Shown one piece after another: positions 35,694-40,217 of a stretch of DNA of 64,000 bases; the first letter of the stretch is position 1; every line of letters begins with the position of its first letter. Under the pieces are notes generated by a model, which was not told the origin of the DNA, did no database searches, and saw only the letters and a list, made by a program, of their open reading frames with translations. Source of the stretch: Roseicella frigidaeris. Lineage in GTDB: Bacteria > Pseudomonadota > Alphaproteobacteria > Acetobacterales > Acetobacteraceae. Made by a program: the position numbers and the translations under genes. The stretch lies in the NCBI RefSeq assembly GCF_003258945.1, contig NZ_QLIX01000006.1, positions 186,001-250,000 of the forward strand, given 5' to 3'.

Positions 35694-36020
35694 ATGATCC
35701 ACGAGCTCCGCATCTATCACTGCCTGCCCAACCGGCTGCCGGCGCTGCTCAAGCGCTTCGACACGGTGACGCTGAAGCTCTGGGAGCGCTTCGGCATCCG
35801 CCAGGCCGGCTTCTGGACCACGCTGGTCGGCCCCTCGAACCACGCCCTCTACTACCTGCTGGAATGGGAGAGCCTGGCCGAGCGGGAGGAGAAGTGGAAC
35901 CGCTTCGCCGTGGACCCGGAATGGGTCGCCGCGCGCAGCGCCTCGGAAGCCGACGGTCCGATCCTGCAGCGGGTGGAGAACATGTTCCTGCAGCCCACCA
36001 GCTTCTCCTCGGTGAAGTAG
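35694..36020 (+). CDS. NIPSNAP family protein
   Basis: A 108-residue ferredoxin-like-fold protein starting MIHELRIYHCLPNRLPALLKRF, the NIPSNAP opening. LWERFGIRQAGFWTTLVG and YYLLEWESLAEREEKWNRF follow. Bacterial NIPSNAP proteins are small and often sit beside catabolic enzymes; their role is unknown. GGGAGGACACC precedes the ATG. Four bases separate it from the agmatinase gene, so it shares the polyamine transcript. Confidence 0.88.
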   Translation: MIHELRIYHCLPNRLPALLKRFDTVTLKLWERFGIRQAGFWTTLVGPSNHALYYLLEWESLAEREEKWNRFAVDPEWVAARSASEADGPILQRVENMFLQPTSFSSVK

Positions 36021-36024
36021 GGCC

Positions 36025-36915
36025 ATGGCCGGCACCCCGACCTTCGCCACGCCGCCGGGCTTCCTCGGCATCACGCGGCAGGACCGGGGGGCCGGCATCT
36101 GCATCGCCGGCATCCCGCTCGATATCGGCACCACCAACCGCAGCGGCACGCGCGACGGGCCGGCCGCCATCCGCCGCGCCAGCCGCATGCTGGTCGATGG
36201 CGTGCATCCGGCGCACTGGACCGATCCGCGCGATCTCGACATCGCCGATGCCGGCGACTTCGCCATCGCCCTCGGCGACATCCCGGCGAGCCTGGCGCTG
36301 ATCGAGCGGCAGGCGGCGGACTGCGCGCATCTCGTCGCCCTCGGCGGCGAGCACCTGATCACCCTGCCGCTGCTGCGGGCGCTGTCCCGGCGCCTCGGTA
36401 CCCCGCTCGGCCTGCTGCACATGGATGCGCATGTCGATACCTGGGAGACGAATTTCGGCCAGAGCCTCGCCCATGGCTCGGTCTTCTTCCACGCCATCCG
36501 GGAGGGGCTGGTCGATCCCCGCCGCATGATCCAGATCGGCATCCGCTCGCCGGTGGACCGCGAGACCTGGGACTGGACGCTCGCCCAGGGGGTGACGGTG
36601 GTGACGGCGCAGGAGGCGCATGAATCGTCGCCGGCGGCGCTGGCGGCCCGGGTGCGCGCGGTGCTCGGCGCGGCGCCCTGCTACCTCTCCTTCGACATCG
36701 ACGCGCTCGACCCCGCCTTCGCCCCGGGCACCGGCACGCCGGAGGTGGGCGGCCTCGCCTCCTGGCAGGCGCAGGGCATCCTGCGCCGGCTGGGCGGCCT
36801 CGCCTGGGCCGGCATGGACCTGGTCGAGGTCTCGCCGGCGCATGACCAGGCGGAGATCACCGCGCTCGCCGGCGCCACCATGGCCTGGGAATACCTCTCG
36901 CTGCTGGCCGCCTGA
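36025..36915 (+). CDS. speB: agmatinase / ureohydrolase family protein
   Basis: A 296-residue binuclear-Mn ureohydrolase predicted to split agmatine into putrescine and urea. The metal ligands are visible: ALGGEHLITLP near residue 109, HMDAHVDTWE near 133 and SFDIDALDPAFAPGTGTPE near 223. The early GTTNRSGTRDGPAAIRRASRML is the substrate-loop signature of agmatinase-like members. Guanidinobutyrase or proclavaminate amidinohydrolase activity is an alternative. It lies upstream of ornithine decarboxylase and homospermidine synthase, fitting a putrescine supply role, and the urea could be linked to the nitrogen economy. Confidence 0.85.
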   Translation: MAGTPTFATPPGFLGITRQDRGAGICIAGIPLDIGTTNRSGTRDGPAAIRRASRMLVDGVHPAHWTDPRDLDIADAGDFAIALGDIPASLALIERQAADCAHLVALGGEHLITLPLLRALSRRLGTPLGLLHMDAHVDTWETNFGQSLAHGSVFFHAIREGLVDPRRMIQIGIRSPVDRETWDWTLAQGVTVVTAQEAHESSPAALAARVRAVLGAAPCYLSFDIDALDPAFAPGTGTPEVGGLASWQAQGILRRLGGLAWAGMDLVEVSPAHDQAEITALAGATMAWEYLSLLAA

Positions 36916-37183
36916 CCGGGCAATTTCCGGCGGCCGGGCCCGGGCTCCGGCGTCTCTGCCGGCAGCGCATGGCTGGCCCGAAAAAAAGGCCTGGAATTCC
37001 GCGGCGGCAGACCCTATTTCTCCGGCCGTGCCCGGTTCGCGCCGGGCGCTGACGCCATCGCACGTGCCGCGAGCCCGGCCGGGATCCTTCGACCCGCGGG
37101 CACAGCAACGACGGGACGCGTCCTTTTCGTCCATGCCGGGGCTGCGGGCCTGCCCGCCGCGCCGGGGTCGTGAGGGATTGTCT
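36916..37183 (+). other. long 5' leader region before the ornithine decarboxylase upstream ORF
   Basis: This is the first part of the 429-base gap between the agmatinase and decarboxylase genes. It has an A7 run near 36981-36987 flanked by GGCC arms, an AT-richer patch ccctatttctcc near 37012 that could be a -10 region, and a GGACGCGTCC palindrome followed by TTTT near 37114-37127. No reading frame of note. Its length and structure suggest a regulatory leader for the decarboxylase. Confidence 0.45.
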
Positions 37184-37234
37184 ATGTCGCTCGAACGGTT
37201 CGACGCGATGCGAAAACCCCACCGCATCGCCTGA
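37184..37234 (+). CDS. candidate leader peptide upstream of ornithine decarboxylase
   Basis: A 16-codon ORF encoding MSLERFDAMRKPHRIA, with GAGGG seven bases before its ATG, ends 110 bases before the decarboxylase start. It has no similarity I know to a stable protein. In gammaproteobacteria the SpeFL/OrgP leader peptide senses ornithine by ribosome stalling and controls Rho-dependent termination ahead of speF. In alphaproteobacteria a structured speF RNA motif is known upstream of the decarboxylase. A C-rich, G-poor stretch after the stop (37273-37300) could be a Rho-loading site. The regulatory role is inferred. Confidence 0.6.
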   Translation: MSLERFDAMRKPHRIA

Positions 37235-37344
37235 GCTCGGTGCCGGAAGCCGCGGGATCGCCCCGCCGCCCGGCCCGTCCACCCCCACCCGATGCCCTGT
37301 CGGCGCGCCCTGCCGCGCGCCGCGATGCCGTGAGGATGTTTGCC
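37235..37344 (+). promoter_or_regulatory. C-rich leader segment, possible rut site
   Basis: Between the leader ORF stop and the decarboxylase start. It includes ccgtccacccccacccgatg, one of the few C-rich and G-poor stretches in the window, followed by a GGCGCGCCCTGCCGCGCGCC hairpin-prone block just before the ribosome-binding site. This arrangement would suit Rho-dependent attenuation controlled by translation of the leader ORF. No direct proof in sequence. Confidence 0.4.
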
Positions 37345-38580
37345 ATGGACCTGCTGCGTGCGCGCGCCGCCGGCGCCCCGCCCTCGCTGCCCGCCGTCGA
37401 TGCGCTCGTCGCCGTCGCCCGGCCGGAGGAGCCGATGCACTGCCTGCGCCCGGCCGCCATCACCGAGGCCGCCGCCGGCTTCGTCGCCGGCTTCCCGGGC
37501 GAGACGCTCTATGCCGTGAAGTGCAACCCGGAGCCCGCCGTGCTGCGCGCGGTCTGGGCGGGCGGCGTGCGGCATTTCGACTGCGCCTCCGCCGGCGAGG
37601 TGGCGCTGGTCCGCAGCCTGCTGCCCGAGGCGGCGATCCACTTCATGCATCCGGTGAAGGCACGCTCGGCGATCCGCGAGGCCTGGCAGCGCCAGGGCGT
37701 GCGCGACTTCGTGCTCGACACGCCGGAGGAGCTGGCGAAGATCGGGGCGGAGACGGGCGCCGGCGCGGCCGAGGGGCTCGGCCTCTTCGTGCGGCTGGCG
37801 CTGCCCAAGGGGGTGGCCCGCTACGACCTCTCCGGCAAGTTCGGCGCCGAGCCGGAGGCGGCGGCGGCCCTGCTGCGCGCGGCCCGGCCGCGGGCGGCGC
37901 GGCTCGGCCTCTGCTTCCATGTCGGCTCGCAATGCCTCGACCCACTGGCCTGGCGGCGCGCCCTGGCGCTGGCAGGGGCGGTGATCCGCGCCGCCGGCGT
38001 CGCCGTTGACGTCATCGATGTCGGCGGCGGCTTCCCGGTGGCCTATCCGGGCGTCACCCCGCCGCCGCTCGGCGCCTTCTTCGCCGAGATCGAGGCGGCG
38101 TTCGAGGCGCTGGCGCTGCCGGGCGCGGCGCTCTGGGCGGAGCCGGGCCGGGCGCTGGTCGCCGGCGGCGGCAGCGTCGTCGTGCAGGTGCAGCAGCGCC
38201 GGGACGGCGCGCTCTACGTGAATGACGGGGTCTACGGCATGCTGTCGGATGCCGGCGCGCCGGGCTTCGTCTTTCCCTGCCGGCTGATCCGCCCCGACGG
38301 GCCGGCCGCCGCGGAGCAGGAGGATTTCGTGCTCTTCGGCCCGACCTGCGACAGCGCCGACCGCATGGCCGGCCCCTTCCGCCTGCCGGCCGATATCCGG
38401 GAGGGCGACTGGATCGAGATCGGCCAGCTCGGCGCCTATGGCGCCTGCCTGCGCACCGCCTTCAACGGCTTCGACCGGGCCCGGATGGTCGAGGTGCGGG
38501 ACCGGCCGATGCTGGAGGCCACGGAGATCGGCCTGGCGGAGGAGGCCCTGGTGGAGGAGACCCTGGCCGAGGCCGCCTGA
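37345..38580 (+). CDS. ornithine/lysine-type decarboxylase (fold III, PLP)
   Basis: Predicted to decarboxylate ornithine to putrescine. The 411-residue protein has the alanine-racemase-like barrel: the PLP Lys in LYAVKCNPEPAVL near residue 57, HVGSQCLDP near 193, DVGGGFPVAYPG near 225, EPGRALVAGGG near 267 and the second-domain Cys in FGPTCDSAD near 333. This matches the eukaryotic-type ODC common in alphaproteobacteria. The ATG at 37345 has GAGG nine bases upstream; an ATG three codons earlier has none at usable spacing. Lies between agmatinase and homospermidine synthase; relatives can also take lysine. Confidence 0.85.
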   Translation: MDLLRARAAGAPPSLPAVDALVAVARPEEPMHCLRPAAITEAAAGFVAGFPGETLYAVKCNPEPAVLRAVWAGGVRHFDCASAGEVALVRSLLPEAAIHFMHPVKARSAIREAWQRQGVRDFVLDTPEELAKIGAETGAGAAEGLGLFVRLALPKGVARYDLSGKFGAEPEAAAALLRAARPRAARLGLCFHVGSQCLDPLAWRRALALAGAVIRAAGVAVDVIDVGGGFPVAYPGVTPPPLGAFFAEIEAAFEALALPGAALWAEPGRALVAGGGSVVVQVQQRRDGALYVNDGVYGMLSDAGAPGFVFPCRLIRPDGPAAAEQEDFVLFGPTCDSADRMAGPFRLPADIREGDWIEIGQLGAYGACLRTAFNGFDRARMVEVRDRPMLEATEIGLAEEALVEETLAEAA

Positions 38581-38605
38581 CCGCGGCGCCCCGTCCCGCG
38601 CCGGC

Positions 38606-38680
38606 GCCAATTCACCCGGCGGGGCTTGCGCGCCCCGATGCCAATTCACATGGCGGGGCTTGCGCGCCCCGCCGGGCCCT
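38606..38680. repeat. 34-bp tandem hairpin repeat between polyamine genes
   Basis: Two adjacent units with a period of 34 bases (starts 38606 and 38640), each beginning gccaattcac and containing GGCGGGGC, loop TTGC, GCGCCCCG. Each unit can fold into a GC hairpin; the second reaches about 9 bp. It lies in the 218-base gap between ornithine decarboxylase and homospermidine synthase. Possible roles are mRNA stabilisation, partial termination or simple duplication. Confidence 0.75.
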
Positions 38681-38798
38681 GCTCGAACCCGCTCGGCCCC
38701 GCGCCGCCTTCCCCCGTCTTCCAAGACGGTTTCATGACACCGCCGCCGGCCCCCGCCCCGCGGCGTTGTCCCGCCACGTGCCCCGGAGTGCCTGACCC

Positions 38799-40217
38799 AT
38801 GATCCACACCTCCTTCTCCGGCCGCCTGGTGATGCTCGGCTTCGGCAGCATCGGCCAGGGCGTGCTGCCGCTGATCCTCCGCCACATCGCCATCCCGCGC
38901 GAGCGGATCACCATCGTCACCGCCGAGGAGCGCGGCCGCGCCGTCGCCGAGGAATACGGCATCCGCTTCGTCATCGAGCCGGCGACGCGCGAGAATTACC
39001 GCGACCTGCTGGCGCCGCTGCTGGGGCCGGGCGACTTCCTGCTCAACCTCTCGGTCGATGTCTCCTCCGTCGCGCTGATGCGGCTCTGCCAGGAGCTGGG
39101 CGCGCTCTATCTCGACACGGTGGTGGAGCCCTGGGCCGGCGGCTACACCGACCCCGCCCTCACCCCCTCGCAGCGCTCCAACTACGCGATGCGCGAGGAG
39201 GCGATCGGGCTGCGGGAGGCGATGCGCGGCGGCCCGACCACGATCACCGCGCATGGCGCCAATCCCGGCCTGGTCAGCCATTTCGTCAAGCAGGCGCTGC
39301 TCGACATCGCCCGCGACACCGGCGCGCCGGTCGCCACGCCGCCGCCGGCCACCGACCGCGCCGCCTGGGCGCGCATCGCCCAGTCGCTCGGCGTGAAGGT
39401 GATCCATATCGCCGAGCGCGACACCCAGGTGTCCGACCGCCCGAAGCGCGTCGGCGAGTTCGTCAACACCTGGTCGGTGGAGGGCTTCGTCGGCGAGGGC
39501 TGCCAGCCGGCCGAGCTCAGCTGGGGCACGCATGAGAAGACGCTGCCCCCGGATGGTCGCCGGCACGGCTTCGGCTGCGACGCGGCGATCTACCTGCTGC
39601 GGCCCGGCGCCTCGACGCGCGTCCGCACCTGGACGCCGCTGGAGGGGCCCTTCCACGGCTTCCTCATCACCCACAACGAGAGCATCTCGCTGGCCGACTA
39701 CTACACCGTCCGCGACGAGGCCGGCCGCGTCCTGTACCGGCCGACGGCGCATTACGCCTACCATCCCTGCGACGACGCGGTGCTCTCGGTGCACGAGCTG
39801 GCCGGCAAGAACTGGCAGATGCAGCCGGAGAGCCGGCTGATGACCGACGAGATCACCAGCGGCATCGACGAGCTCGGCGTGCTGCTCTGCGGCCATGCCA
39901 AGGGCGCCTACTGGTACGGTTCGCGCCTCTCCATCGAGGAGGCACGGCGCCTGGTGCCGCACAACAACGCCACCTCGCTGCAGGTGACGGTCGCGGTGCT
40001 GGCCGGGGTGATCTGGGCGATGGAGAACCCGCGCGCCGGGCTGGTCGAATCCGACGAGCTGGACCATGCGCGGATCCTCGAGATCTGCCGCCCCTATCTC
40101 GGCAAGGTGGTCGGCGCCTATTCCGACTGGACGCCGCTGCAGGACCGCGCCCGGCTGTTCCCGGAGGCGCTGGACGAGAGCGATCCCTGGCAGTTCGGCA
40201 ATATCCGCGTGGCCTGA
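38799..40217 (+). CDS. hss: homospermidine synthase
   Basis: Makes sym-homospermidine from two putrescines with NAD. The 472-residue protein has an N-terminal Rossmann motif MLGFGSIGQGVLP, NLSVDVSSVALMRLCQELGALYLDTVVEPW (read in parts near residues 84-113), HGANPGLVSHFVKQALLD near 149 and TEN-type DEITSGIDELGVLLCGH near 348, all of the alphaproteobacterial HSS family. It is downstream of ODC with its own leader of more than 200 bases. With agmatinase and ODC it forms a route from arginine and ornithine to homospermidine. Confidence 0.92.
   Translation: MIHTSFSGRLVMLGFGSIGQGVLPLILRHIAIPRERITIVTAEERGRAVAEEYGIRFVIEPATRENYRDLLAPLLGPGDFLLNLSVDVSSVALMRLCQELGALYLDTVVEPWAGGYTDPALTPSQRSNYAMREEAIGLREAMRGGPTTITAHGANPGLVSHFVKQALLDIARDTGAPVATPPPATDRAAWARIAQSLGVKVIHIAERDTQVSDRPKRVGEFVNTWSVEGFVGEGCQPAELSWGTHEKTLPPDGRRHGFGCDAAIYLLRPGASTRVRTWTPLEGPFHGFLITHNESISLADYYTVRDEAGRVLYRPTAHYAYHPCDDAVLSVHELAGKNWQMQPESRLMTDEITSGIDELGVLLCGHAKGAYWYGSRLSIEEARRLVPHNNATSLQVTVAVLAGVIWAMENPRAGLVESDELDHARILEICRPYLGKVVGAYSDWTPLQDRARLFPEALDESDPWQFGNIRVA

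Follow-up and report, generated by a model that had tools for sequence, protein, structure and literature searches.

A conserved ar45/speF-like leader RNA with a short open reading frame precedes an ornithine decarboxylase gene in Roseicella frigidaeris

Introduction

In enterobacteria, speFL is an ornithine-sensing peptide, and the enzyme encoded behind the speFL/orf34 leader differs in fold from the ornithine decarboxylase (ODC) studied here. In Salmonella, translation of orf34 is reported to be coupled to Rho and to RNA refolding (PMC6386406). Among alphaproteobacterial RNAs, the speF motif was proposed in 2005 (Corbino et al., PMC1273637); that paper places its conserved 5' end near a putative start site and reports no binding of the A. 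tumefaciens speF RNA to any of six compounds tested, homospermidine not being among them. A further RNA, ar45, is treated in published work as a separate small RNA (PMC2780559, PMC7717549). The accessible open-access literature, including parts of PMC2573895 and PMC12403871, gives no ligand for speF, and in the same accessible portions there is neither a description of the element reported below in Acetobacteraceae nor a joining of ar45 and speF as one leader.

Here we analysed a stretch of 64,000 nucleotides from Roseicella frigidaeris (the window), in which the original prediction had proposed a regulatory leader of the ODC gene with a 16-codon open reading frame (ORF). We compared this leader with those of relatives in the family, the class and the phylum and with the catalogued speF and ar45 RNAs.

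Results

The short ORF lies in a polyamine gene cluster

The locus around the short ORF is a polyamine cluster composed of an agmatinase-family enzyme, an ODC whose best PDB matches are lysine/ornithine decarboxylases and a homospermidine synthase:

36025-36915, + strand: agmatinase-family ureohydrolase, upstream of the leader (NF002564 agmatinase, 313 bits; cut-off 302)
36992-37020, + strand: promoter-like pair TGGAAT - 17 - TATTTC (picked by eye; weak)
37172-37176, + strand: Shine-Dalgarno sequence (SD) GAGGG of the short ORF, inside the stem P4 listed below (G37175 invariant and G37176 near-invariant in the alignment A3)
37184-37234, + strand: short ORF MSLERFDAMRKPHRIA, 16 codons, read from the sequence (frame and length kept in 97 leaders)
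37235-37344, + strand: spacer from the short ORF to the ODC gene, by base composition mildly richer in C than in G
37345-38580, + strand: ornithine/lysine decarboxylase (group IV, PLP; ODC), 411 aa (PF02784/PF00278)
38799-40217, + strand: homospermidine synthase (612 bits to PDB homospermidine synthase chains, e.g. 4xq9)

The layout originally described was found as claimed, with GAGGG at 37172-37176, seven bases, the ATG at 37184, MSLERFDAMRKPHRIA, the TGA at 37232-37234, 110 bases and the ODC ATG at 37345. The spacer had also been called C-rich and G-poor, and of this description the first half stood (45% C) but the second did not (34% G). Among 3454 windows taken from both strands of the 64-kb sequence, 9.5% reach the C-over-G skew of the spacer (0.15). 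Over 97 Acetobacteraceae loci the 90 bases 3' of the ORF have a mean skew of 0.12, and 25% of these loci exceed 0.2 compared with 5% of background windows, a weak skew that is compatible with Rho.

The by-eye promoter-like pair TGGAAT/TATTTC, if used at all, would set the transcription start ahead of the RNA element described next. A consensus promoter scan of the window leader found none, and the best pair given by scripted scoring in the window differs from the by-eye one. The mean promoter score over 96 distinct sequences is in slight excess of that in shuffles (8.70 versus 8.11), and relatives repeatedly have AT-rich positions some 33-45 and 66-69 bases ahead of the element. An intrinsic terminator, sought in the window leader, was not found.

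A folded RNA ends in the SD and start codon of the short ORF

Judged by alignment, the dominant conserved feature is a predicted structured RNA upstream of the ORF, a feature absent from the original prediction. Most of 12 Acetobacteraceae ODC leaders share a block that opens with GACGC..ATCGCACGTGCC and closes with the SD and start codon, the block being degenerate or shortened in two (L006, L011). The model R1 was built from 10 of these 12, and its training was thereby restricted to Acetobacteraceae. A wider model, R2, was built from A3, an alignment of 54 diverse leaders on which the structure was written by hand; it derives partly from R1 class sites and contains no speF-type leaders. The features of the RNA are as follows:

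37048-37186, + strand: conserved structured leader element, ar45/speF-like (118.4 bits with R1 and 69.6 bits with R2, the element itself being among the training sequences of both)
37051-37055, + strand: 5' strand of P1, GACGC, with GCGUC at 37118-37122 (99.6% of cells paired)
37059-37068, + strand: 5' strand of the core, CGCACGUGCC, with AGCAACGAC at 37104-37112 (CG/CG and UGC/GCA pairs; near invariant in 54 sequences)
37071-37103, + strand: P2 stem (37071-37076 with 37098-37103) carrying an insert of variable length (changes on both sides in six of seven counted pairs)
37123-37175, + strand: P4, a long bulged hairpin whose 3' strand contains most of the SD (from A3 pairing counts)
37123-37129, + strand: stem of P4, CUUUUCG, with 37169-37175 (82.1% of cells paired; both-side changes in three pairs)
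37136-37141, + strand: tip of P4, with 37160-37165 (90.3% of cells paired; both-side changes in four pairs)

The folded RNA thus ends in the short ORF's own SD and start codon, and the invariant core (CG-CACG-UGCC / GCA-ACGAC) sits within the domain closed by P1. The A3 structure has 85.8% of its cells paired and 63 double-change cells, compared with 30.7 after shuffling (0 of 500 shuffles as high) and at most 27 when the structure was slid along the alignment. Most of this covariation falls in P2, P4 and the P4 tip, although three of the six both-side-changed pairs of P2 are unpaired in 21-37 of the 54 sequences and one P4 pair fails in many of them. P1 and the core are nearly invariant and therefore covary only weakly; at the place of P1 the ar45 model has GCCC/GGGC. 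Single-sequence folds were not unusually stable (z of 0.01 for the relative L012 and -0.88 for the window).

The short ORF is kept in position, frame and length

An SD-started ORF at the same place closes within 14-25 codons in all 97 Acetobacteraceae leaders counted (90 distinct ORF sequences), and the proposal of a regulatory leader of the ODC gene agrees with this retention of position, frame and length. In the two other frames closure by 25 codons occurs in 32 and 55 of the 97 leaders, and the band of 14-18 codons holds 89 leaders in the ORF frame versus 6 and 2 in the others. Five start picks had been changed by hand or script (L033, L035, L052, L066 and L070, before at 21, 21, 5, 7 and 44 codons); with uncorrected picks, 96 of 97 close within 25 codons and 84 fall in the 14-18 band. 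The 97 come from 105 family loci, eight rows having been dropped: a homospermidine synthase site (L061), a site of the second decarboxylase type, ODC2 (L135), three leaders without the upstream ORF (L127, L129, L134), two whose ORFs of 23 and 17 codons were missed by a text pattern (L069, L114) and one with no start codon at the usual place (L106). In the last, GAG stands where the start codon would be, and the ORF seems lost with the element and the ODC gene remaining. Roseicella sp. DB1501 (L273) encodes the same peptide as the window.

Across the wider class the ORFs range from 10 to 59 codons with mostly unrelated peptides. At six sites (L127, L129, L134, L189, L156/L196 counted as one, and L203; L127 and L129 being of one genus) the start codon of the element is in frame with the decarboxylase and opens it, without a short ORF, and in L192 this SD is used for an ATG of the enzyme that lies five bases past the first ATG. 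Since the start codon of the element opens the decarboxylase at some sites, initiation at the SD seems to be what the element is built around, and the short ORF seems to be one thing able to stand behind it. In three further loci (L151, L155, L164) an ORF from the element's ATG runs in frame into an ODC2-type decarboxylase as a long N-terminal extension.

The fixed parts of the ORF look like nucleotide motifs

Arginine accounts for 18.3% of the ORF codons compared with 12.1% in shuffles, and none of the 90 distinct ORFs is without it, so that arginine codons may contribute. The speed of translation over these codons would then sense charged arginine tRNA and reshape the leader, as is reported for Salmonella orf34 (PMC6386406), and an agmatinase/arginase-family gene does lie upstream. 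However, Ala, Ile and Met are enriched in the short ORFs as well, the positions of Arg are not fixed, part of the Arg comes from a conserved GCGATGCGA segment able to base pair, and one ORF of the wider class (L139) contains no Arg. We consider this explanation unlikely, if still worth keeping in view.

The original prediction went further and assigned the sensing of ornithine or a polyamine to the residues of the peptide, which would stall the ribosome. The retention of position, frame and length in the 97 leaders and an R-S-P-R-I-A-like ending that recurs in many ORFs speak in its favour, as does the enterobacterial precedent of speFL. Against it, the synonymous bias expected over the 16 codons does not reach significance (58 of 172 single-base codon changes synonymous, 48.9 expected, p = 0.13), differences between 53 nearest pairs are spread as 92/101/117 over the three codon positions, and the C-termini differ widely. 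Conservation of RFDxMRKPHR, on which the prediction had been staked beforehand, is not seen among 37 distinct 16-codon relatives, in which only A8 (36) and M9 (35) are near-invariant after the start. Residues under protein-level selection, by which an arrest leader peptide would be recognised, were thus not found in the short ORF. Together with the mostly unrelated ORFs of the wider class, the leaders that have no ORF and the six sites at which the element opens the decarboxylase directly, this makes sensing by a specific nascent peptide improbable.

The fixed parts of the ORF look, in alignment, like nucleotide motifs. In the codon of A8 the third base is as fixed as the second (97% each), which fits base pairing better than selection on the protein. 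One motif, U-U-G-C-like, follows the start codon and is complementary to the core, and another, GCGATGC, can pair with CATCGC on either side. The window fold gives a hairpin within the ORF:

37205-37230, + strand: hairpin GCGAUGCG/CGCAUCGC inside the short ORF

Its mean z is -1.23 over the 97 Acetobacteraceae leaders and only -0.24 over 27 leaders of the wider class, and for this reason it is not claimed class-wide. A closing helix of 37058-37066 with the GCGATGCGA segment of the ORF, suggested by RNAalifold, scored -10.2 versus -7.2 after shuffling but -9.6 with the ORFs of other species, and it was retained as a lead only.

The element precedes polyamine genes across the class

R1 found the element in 107 of 397 family genomes, counted regardless of the presence of an ODC gene. 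In a draw of 289 genomes from the class, 40 had a hit at E <= 0.01. The family search gave 108 places, of which 105 were read (G310 and G331 lie near contig ends and G020 is the same as L007): 103 precede an ODC of the window type (ODC1), one a homospermidine synthase (G169) and one the second decarboxylase. Outside the window genome the class search gave 48 places, two of which run into a contig end; among the 46 readable sites, 42 precede ODC1, an ODC2-type gene or homospermidine synthase, the other four being G466 (E 1.4e-4) and G578, G049 and G552:C42 (E 0.001-0.009). R2, at E <= 0.001, hit 37 of the 289 class genomes, and its 48 sites outside the window genome comprise 25 before ODC2-type genes, 15 before ODC1, four before homospermidine synthase, two before other ORFs, in G466 and G430, and two at contig ends; 44 of the 46 readable sites thus precede polyamine genes.

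Homospermidine synthase is also preceded by the element in five genomes (L188, L193, L194, L201, L205). In G466 (L208, 306-1187) the start codon of the element opens an ORF with a class-I glutamine amidotransferase domain, and in G430 (L246, 1996-2403, - strand) a 136-codon ORF with no assignment stands at that start codon.

In the window's own genome (5.8 Mb), R2 at E <= 1 gave exactly two hits, the window element and a second copy that was not in the training set (G000, contig C78, 74076-74248; L217, L251; 36 bits, E 0.004) and that precedes a second group IV decarboxylase. Of 299 genomes drawn from the phylum, in a draw given without its make-up by class, six had hits, all belonging to the window's class. 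In a named collection overlapping the training species, the element was present at 77 of the 80 ODC loci returned, with Roseicella, Belnapia, Siccirubricoccus, Roseomonas, Rhodopila, Acidocella and Magnetospirillum among the carriers; the loci with no hit were L331, with full upstream DNA, and L284 and L306, which start near contig ends. Ten of the 11 ODC2-type loci L020-L030 had an R2 hit. Six ODC relatives of 37-52% identity gave a best E of 0.82 in the upstream DNA searched (L013-L016, L018, L019; L017 starts at a contig end), and R2 had no hit in L006 (G025), which has ODC1 and a 16-codon ORF.

The element, ar45 and the 5' part of speF probably belong together

The pointer in the original prediction to the alphaproteobacterial speF motif was right. 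The Rfam speF covariance model that it named (RF00518), run over 36000-38700 with E allowed up to 10, gave no match. In the whole window genome the best RF00518 score was 12.5 bits, with none at the window (cut-off 37), and the ar45 model (RF02347; cut-off 40 bits) had no match at E <= 10 in the window and none in the relatives L002-L012. When thresholds were relaxed, the Rfam matches in the window and its relatives were no more than chance-like and scored far under the cut-offs.

RF00518 itself hit 17 of the 289 class genomes at E <= 0.01, nine of them over the cut-off. Applied to 11 speF-type loci (L170-L180), R2 placed hits where expected in 9 at E <= 0.05 and in all 11 at E < 1, with modest scores (12-32 bits) and rough E-values; L170 had one further weak hit at another place, and the seven loci with weak RF00518 matches (L181-L187) had none. 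Just 5' of the Rfam match in L171-L180 we found GCACGTG in 9 of 10 loci and AACGACG in 10 of 10, followed by a U-run. The start of the RF00518 hits lies about 25 bases past AACGACG, and the Rfam model therefore lacks the 5' half. Rfam places ar45 at 7-8 bases 5' of speF in all six speF loci scanned (L171, L172, L173, L175, L176 and L180, the last with a speF match below cut-off), and R2 aligns to this ar45 stretch. The pairs GuCG/CGaC and uGC/GCa of the ar45 model follow the same plan in A3, where two to three of the four GuCG/CGaC pairs are present. In G423 an R1 hit overlaps an RF00518 hit over the cut-off. On these sequence relations we take ar45, the initial portion of speF and the element of the window to be a single leader type, and the ar45 RNA may be a terminated speF-type leader.

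It might instead be argued that the ar45-like 5' domain acts separately as a small RNA, like ar45/SmrC45, and is merely upstream of the ODC gene. S. meliloti SmrC45 has been given a length of 181 nt, ending in a U-run that follows a terminator hairpin (PMC2780559), and Bartonella ar45 is reported to appear apart from speF on northern blots (PMC7717549). A terminated leader would resemble a small RNA, however, and the element goes with polyamine genes, carries the SD either of these genes or of the short ORF, and supplies the start codon that opens the decarboxylase at six sites; we give this explanation little credence. That the conserved block is instead a DNA operator for a transcription factor (palindrome GCACGTGC) is hardly credible, almost invariant as GCACGTGCC is, since more than 100 bases are conserved, P2 and P4 show compensatory changes and the inserts vary in length.

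Discussion

Sequence comparison shows the conservation, most of the helices, the genes that the element precedes and its kinship with speF leaders. The folded RNA, and not the little peptide, looks like the regulator. At a probability of about 0.6, we favour a divergent ar45/speF-type leader that controls initiation at its own SD, an effect relayed through a short ORF whose translation, and not its peptide sequence, matters. The ODC mRNA would begin with this alphaproteobacterial polyamine-gene leader, in which the P1-closed domain with its invariant core is followed by P4, whose 3' strand holds the SD. A core strand could have two alternative partners, one inside the core and the other, in a pseudoknot, directly behind the start codon, and a polyamine-related signal acting on the core would decide whether the ribosome can start at the SD. 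The start codon concerned is the enzyme's own in some lineages, and in the lineage of the window it starts the 16-codon ORF, the translation of which would act as the relay to the ODC gene, most likely by barring Rho from the spacer, by unfolding the leader or by both; the peptide sequence itself would carry little information. By analogy with Salmonella orf34 (PMC6386406), the relay probably runs through Rho and leader folding.

The pseudoknot in this proposal has a candidate partner:

37186-37191, + strand: GUCGCU just after the start codon, candidate pseudoknot, partly complementary to the core at 37104-37112

Complementarity between core and message is strongest at the start codon, where the mean duplex energy is lowest (121 distinct leaders; family and class sets), and the longest complementary run averages 5.29 versus 4.06 after shuffling (126 leaders), averages that include five mis-picked cores (L108, L116, L159, L160, L199) not cited as cases. 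Compensatory changes occur in L208 (GCUAC/GUAGC, the best case) and in L156/L196 (CGGC/GCCG), with a counter-case in L144, where the core is changed as in L208 but its partner is not. P1 and P4 lie next to each other and might just be stacked, in which case there would be no switch.

As to the signal, the gene set of ODC, second decarboxylase and homospermidine synthase points to what may be sensed, and homospermidine, outside the compounds reported as tested (PMC1273637), is a candidate ligand. Tentatively, and with a chance that we judge to be well short of even, ar45 and speF could be a single orphan class of leaders sensing homospermidine or a related end product of polyamine synthesis, with feedback on both ODC and homospermidine synthase. 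The core would switch between its own stem and the start-codon pseudoknot, in Acetobacteraceae a sequence-neutral ORF would relay the state to the ODC gene, and the ar45 'small RNA' would be the terminated leader. Two Rfam families, one a small RNA (ar45) and the other a leader (speF), are thereby suggested to be halves of a single leader, and the short ORF is suggested to be kept for being translated and not for its peptide. Compact versions of the element, of about 80-140 bases and in some cases ending at the enzyme start codon, are also available.

The element can be set beside four described leaders or RNAs. The spermidine riboswitch is, like the window element, a leader RNA of a polyamine gene, but it is a variant of the SAM-I aptamer (PMC10853860), and a SAM-I match sought with Rfam in the window region was not found. 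The enterobacterial speFL/orf34 leader likewise has a short ORF in a long ODC leader; its peptide core HIRRT-HIM (DUF2618), a motif taken from PMC6386406, is absent by eye from the window ORF, and in the window, unlike in that leader, a structured RNA precedes the ORF. The ar45 RNA (RF02347; SmrC45 of S. meliloti, Bbar45 of Bartonella) shares the plan of core and closing stem with the window element, but it is catalogued as a small RNA and its P1 is GCCC/GGGC instead of GACGC/GCGUC. The speF motif (RF00518), as described in PMC1273637, lies upstream of an alphaproteobacterial group IV, COG0019-type ODC, as the window element does, and has the same plan of a 5' conserved block, a stem with a variable insert and a long bulged stem-loop; by eye, the speF leaders of L171-L180 have no ATG directly after the SD-like GAAGAGG, whereas the window element carries a start codon after its SD.
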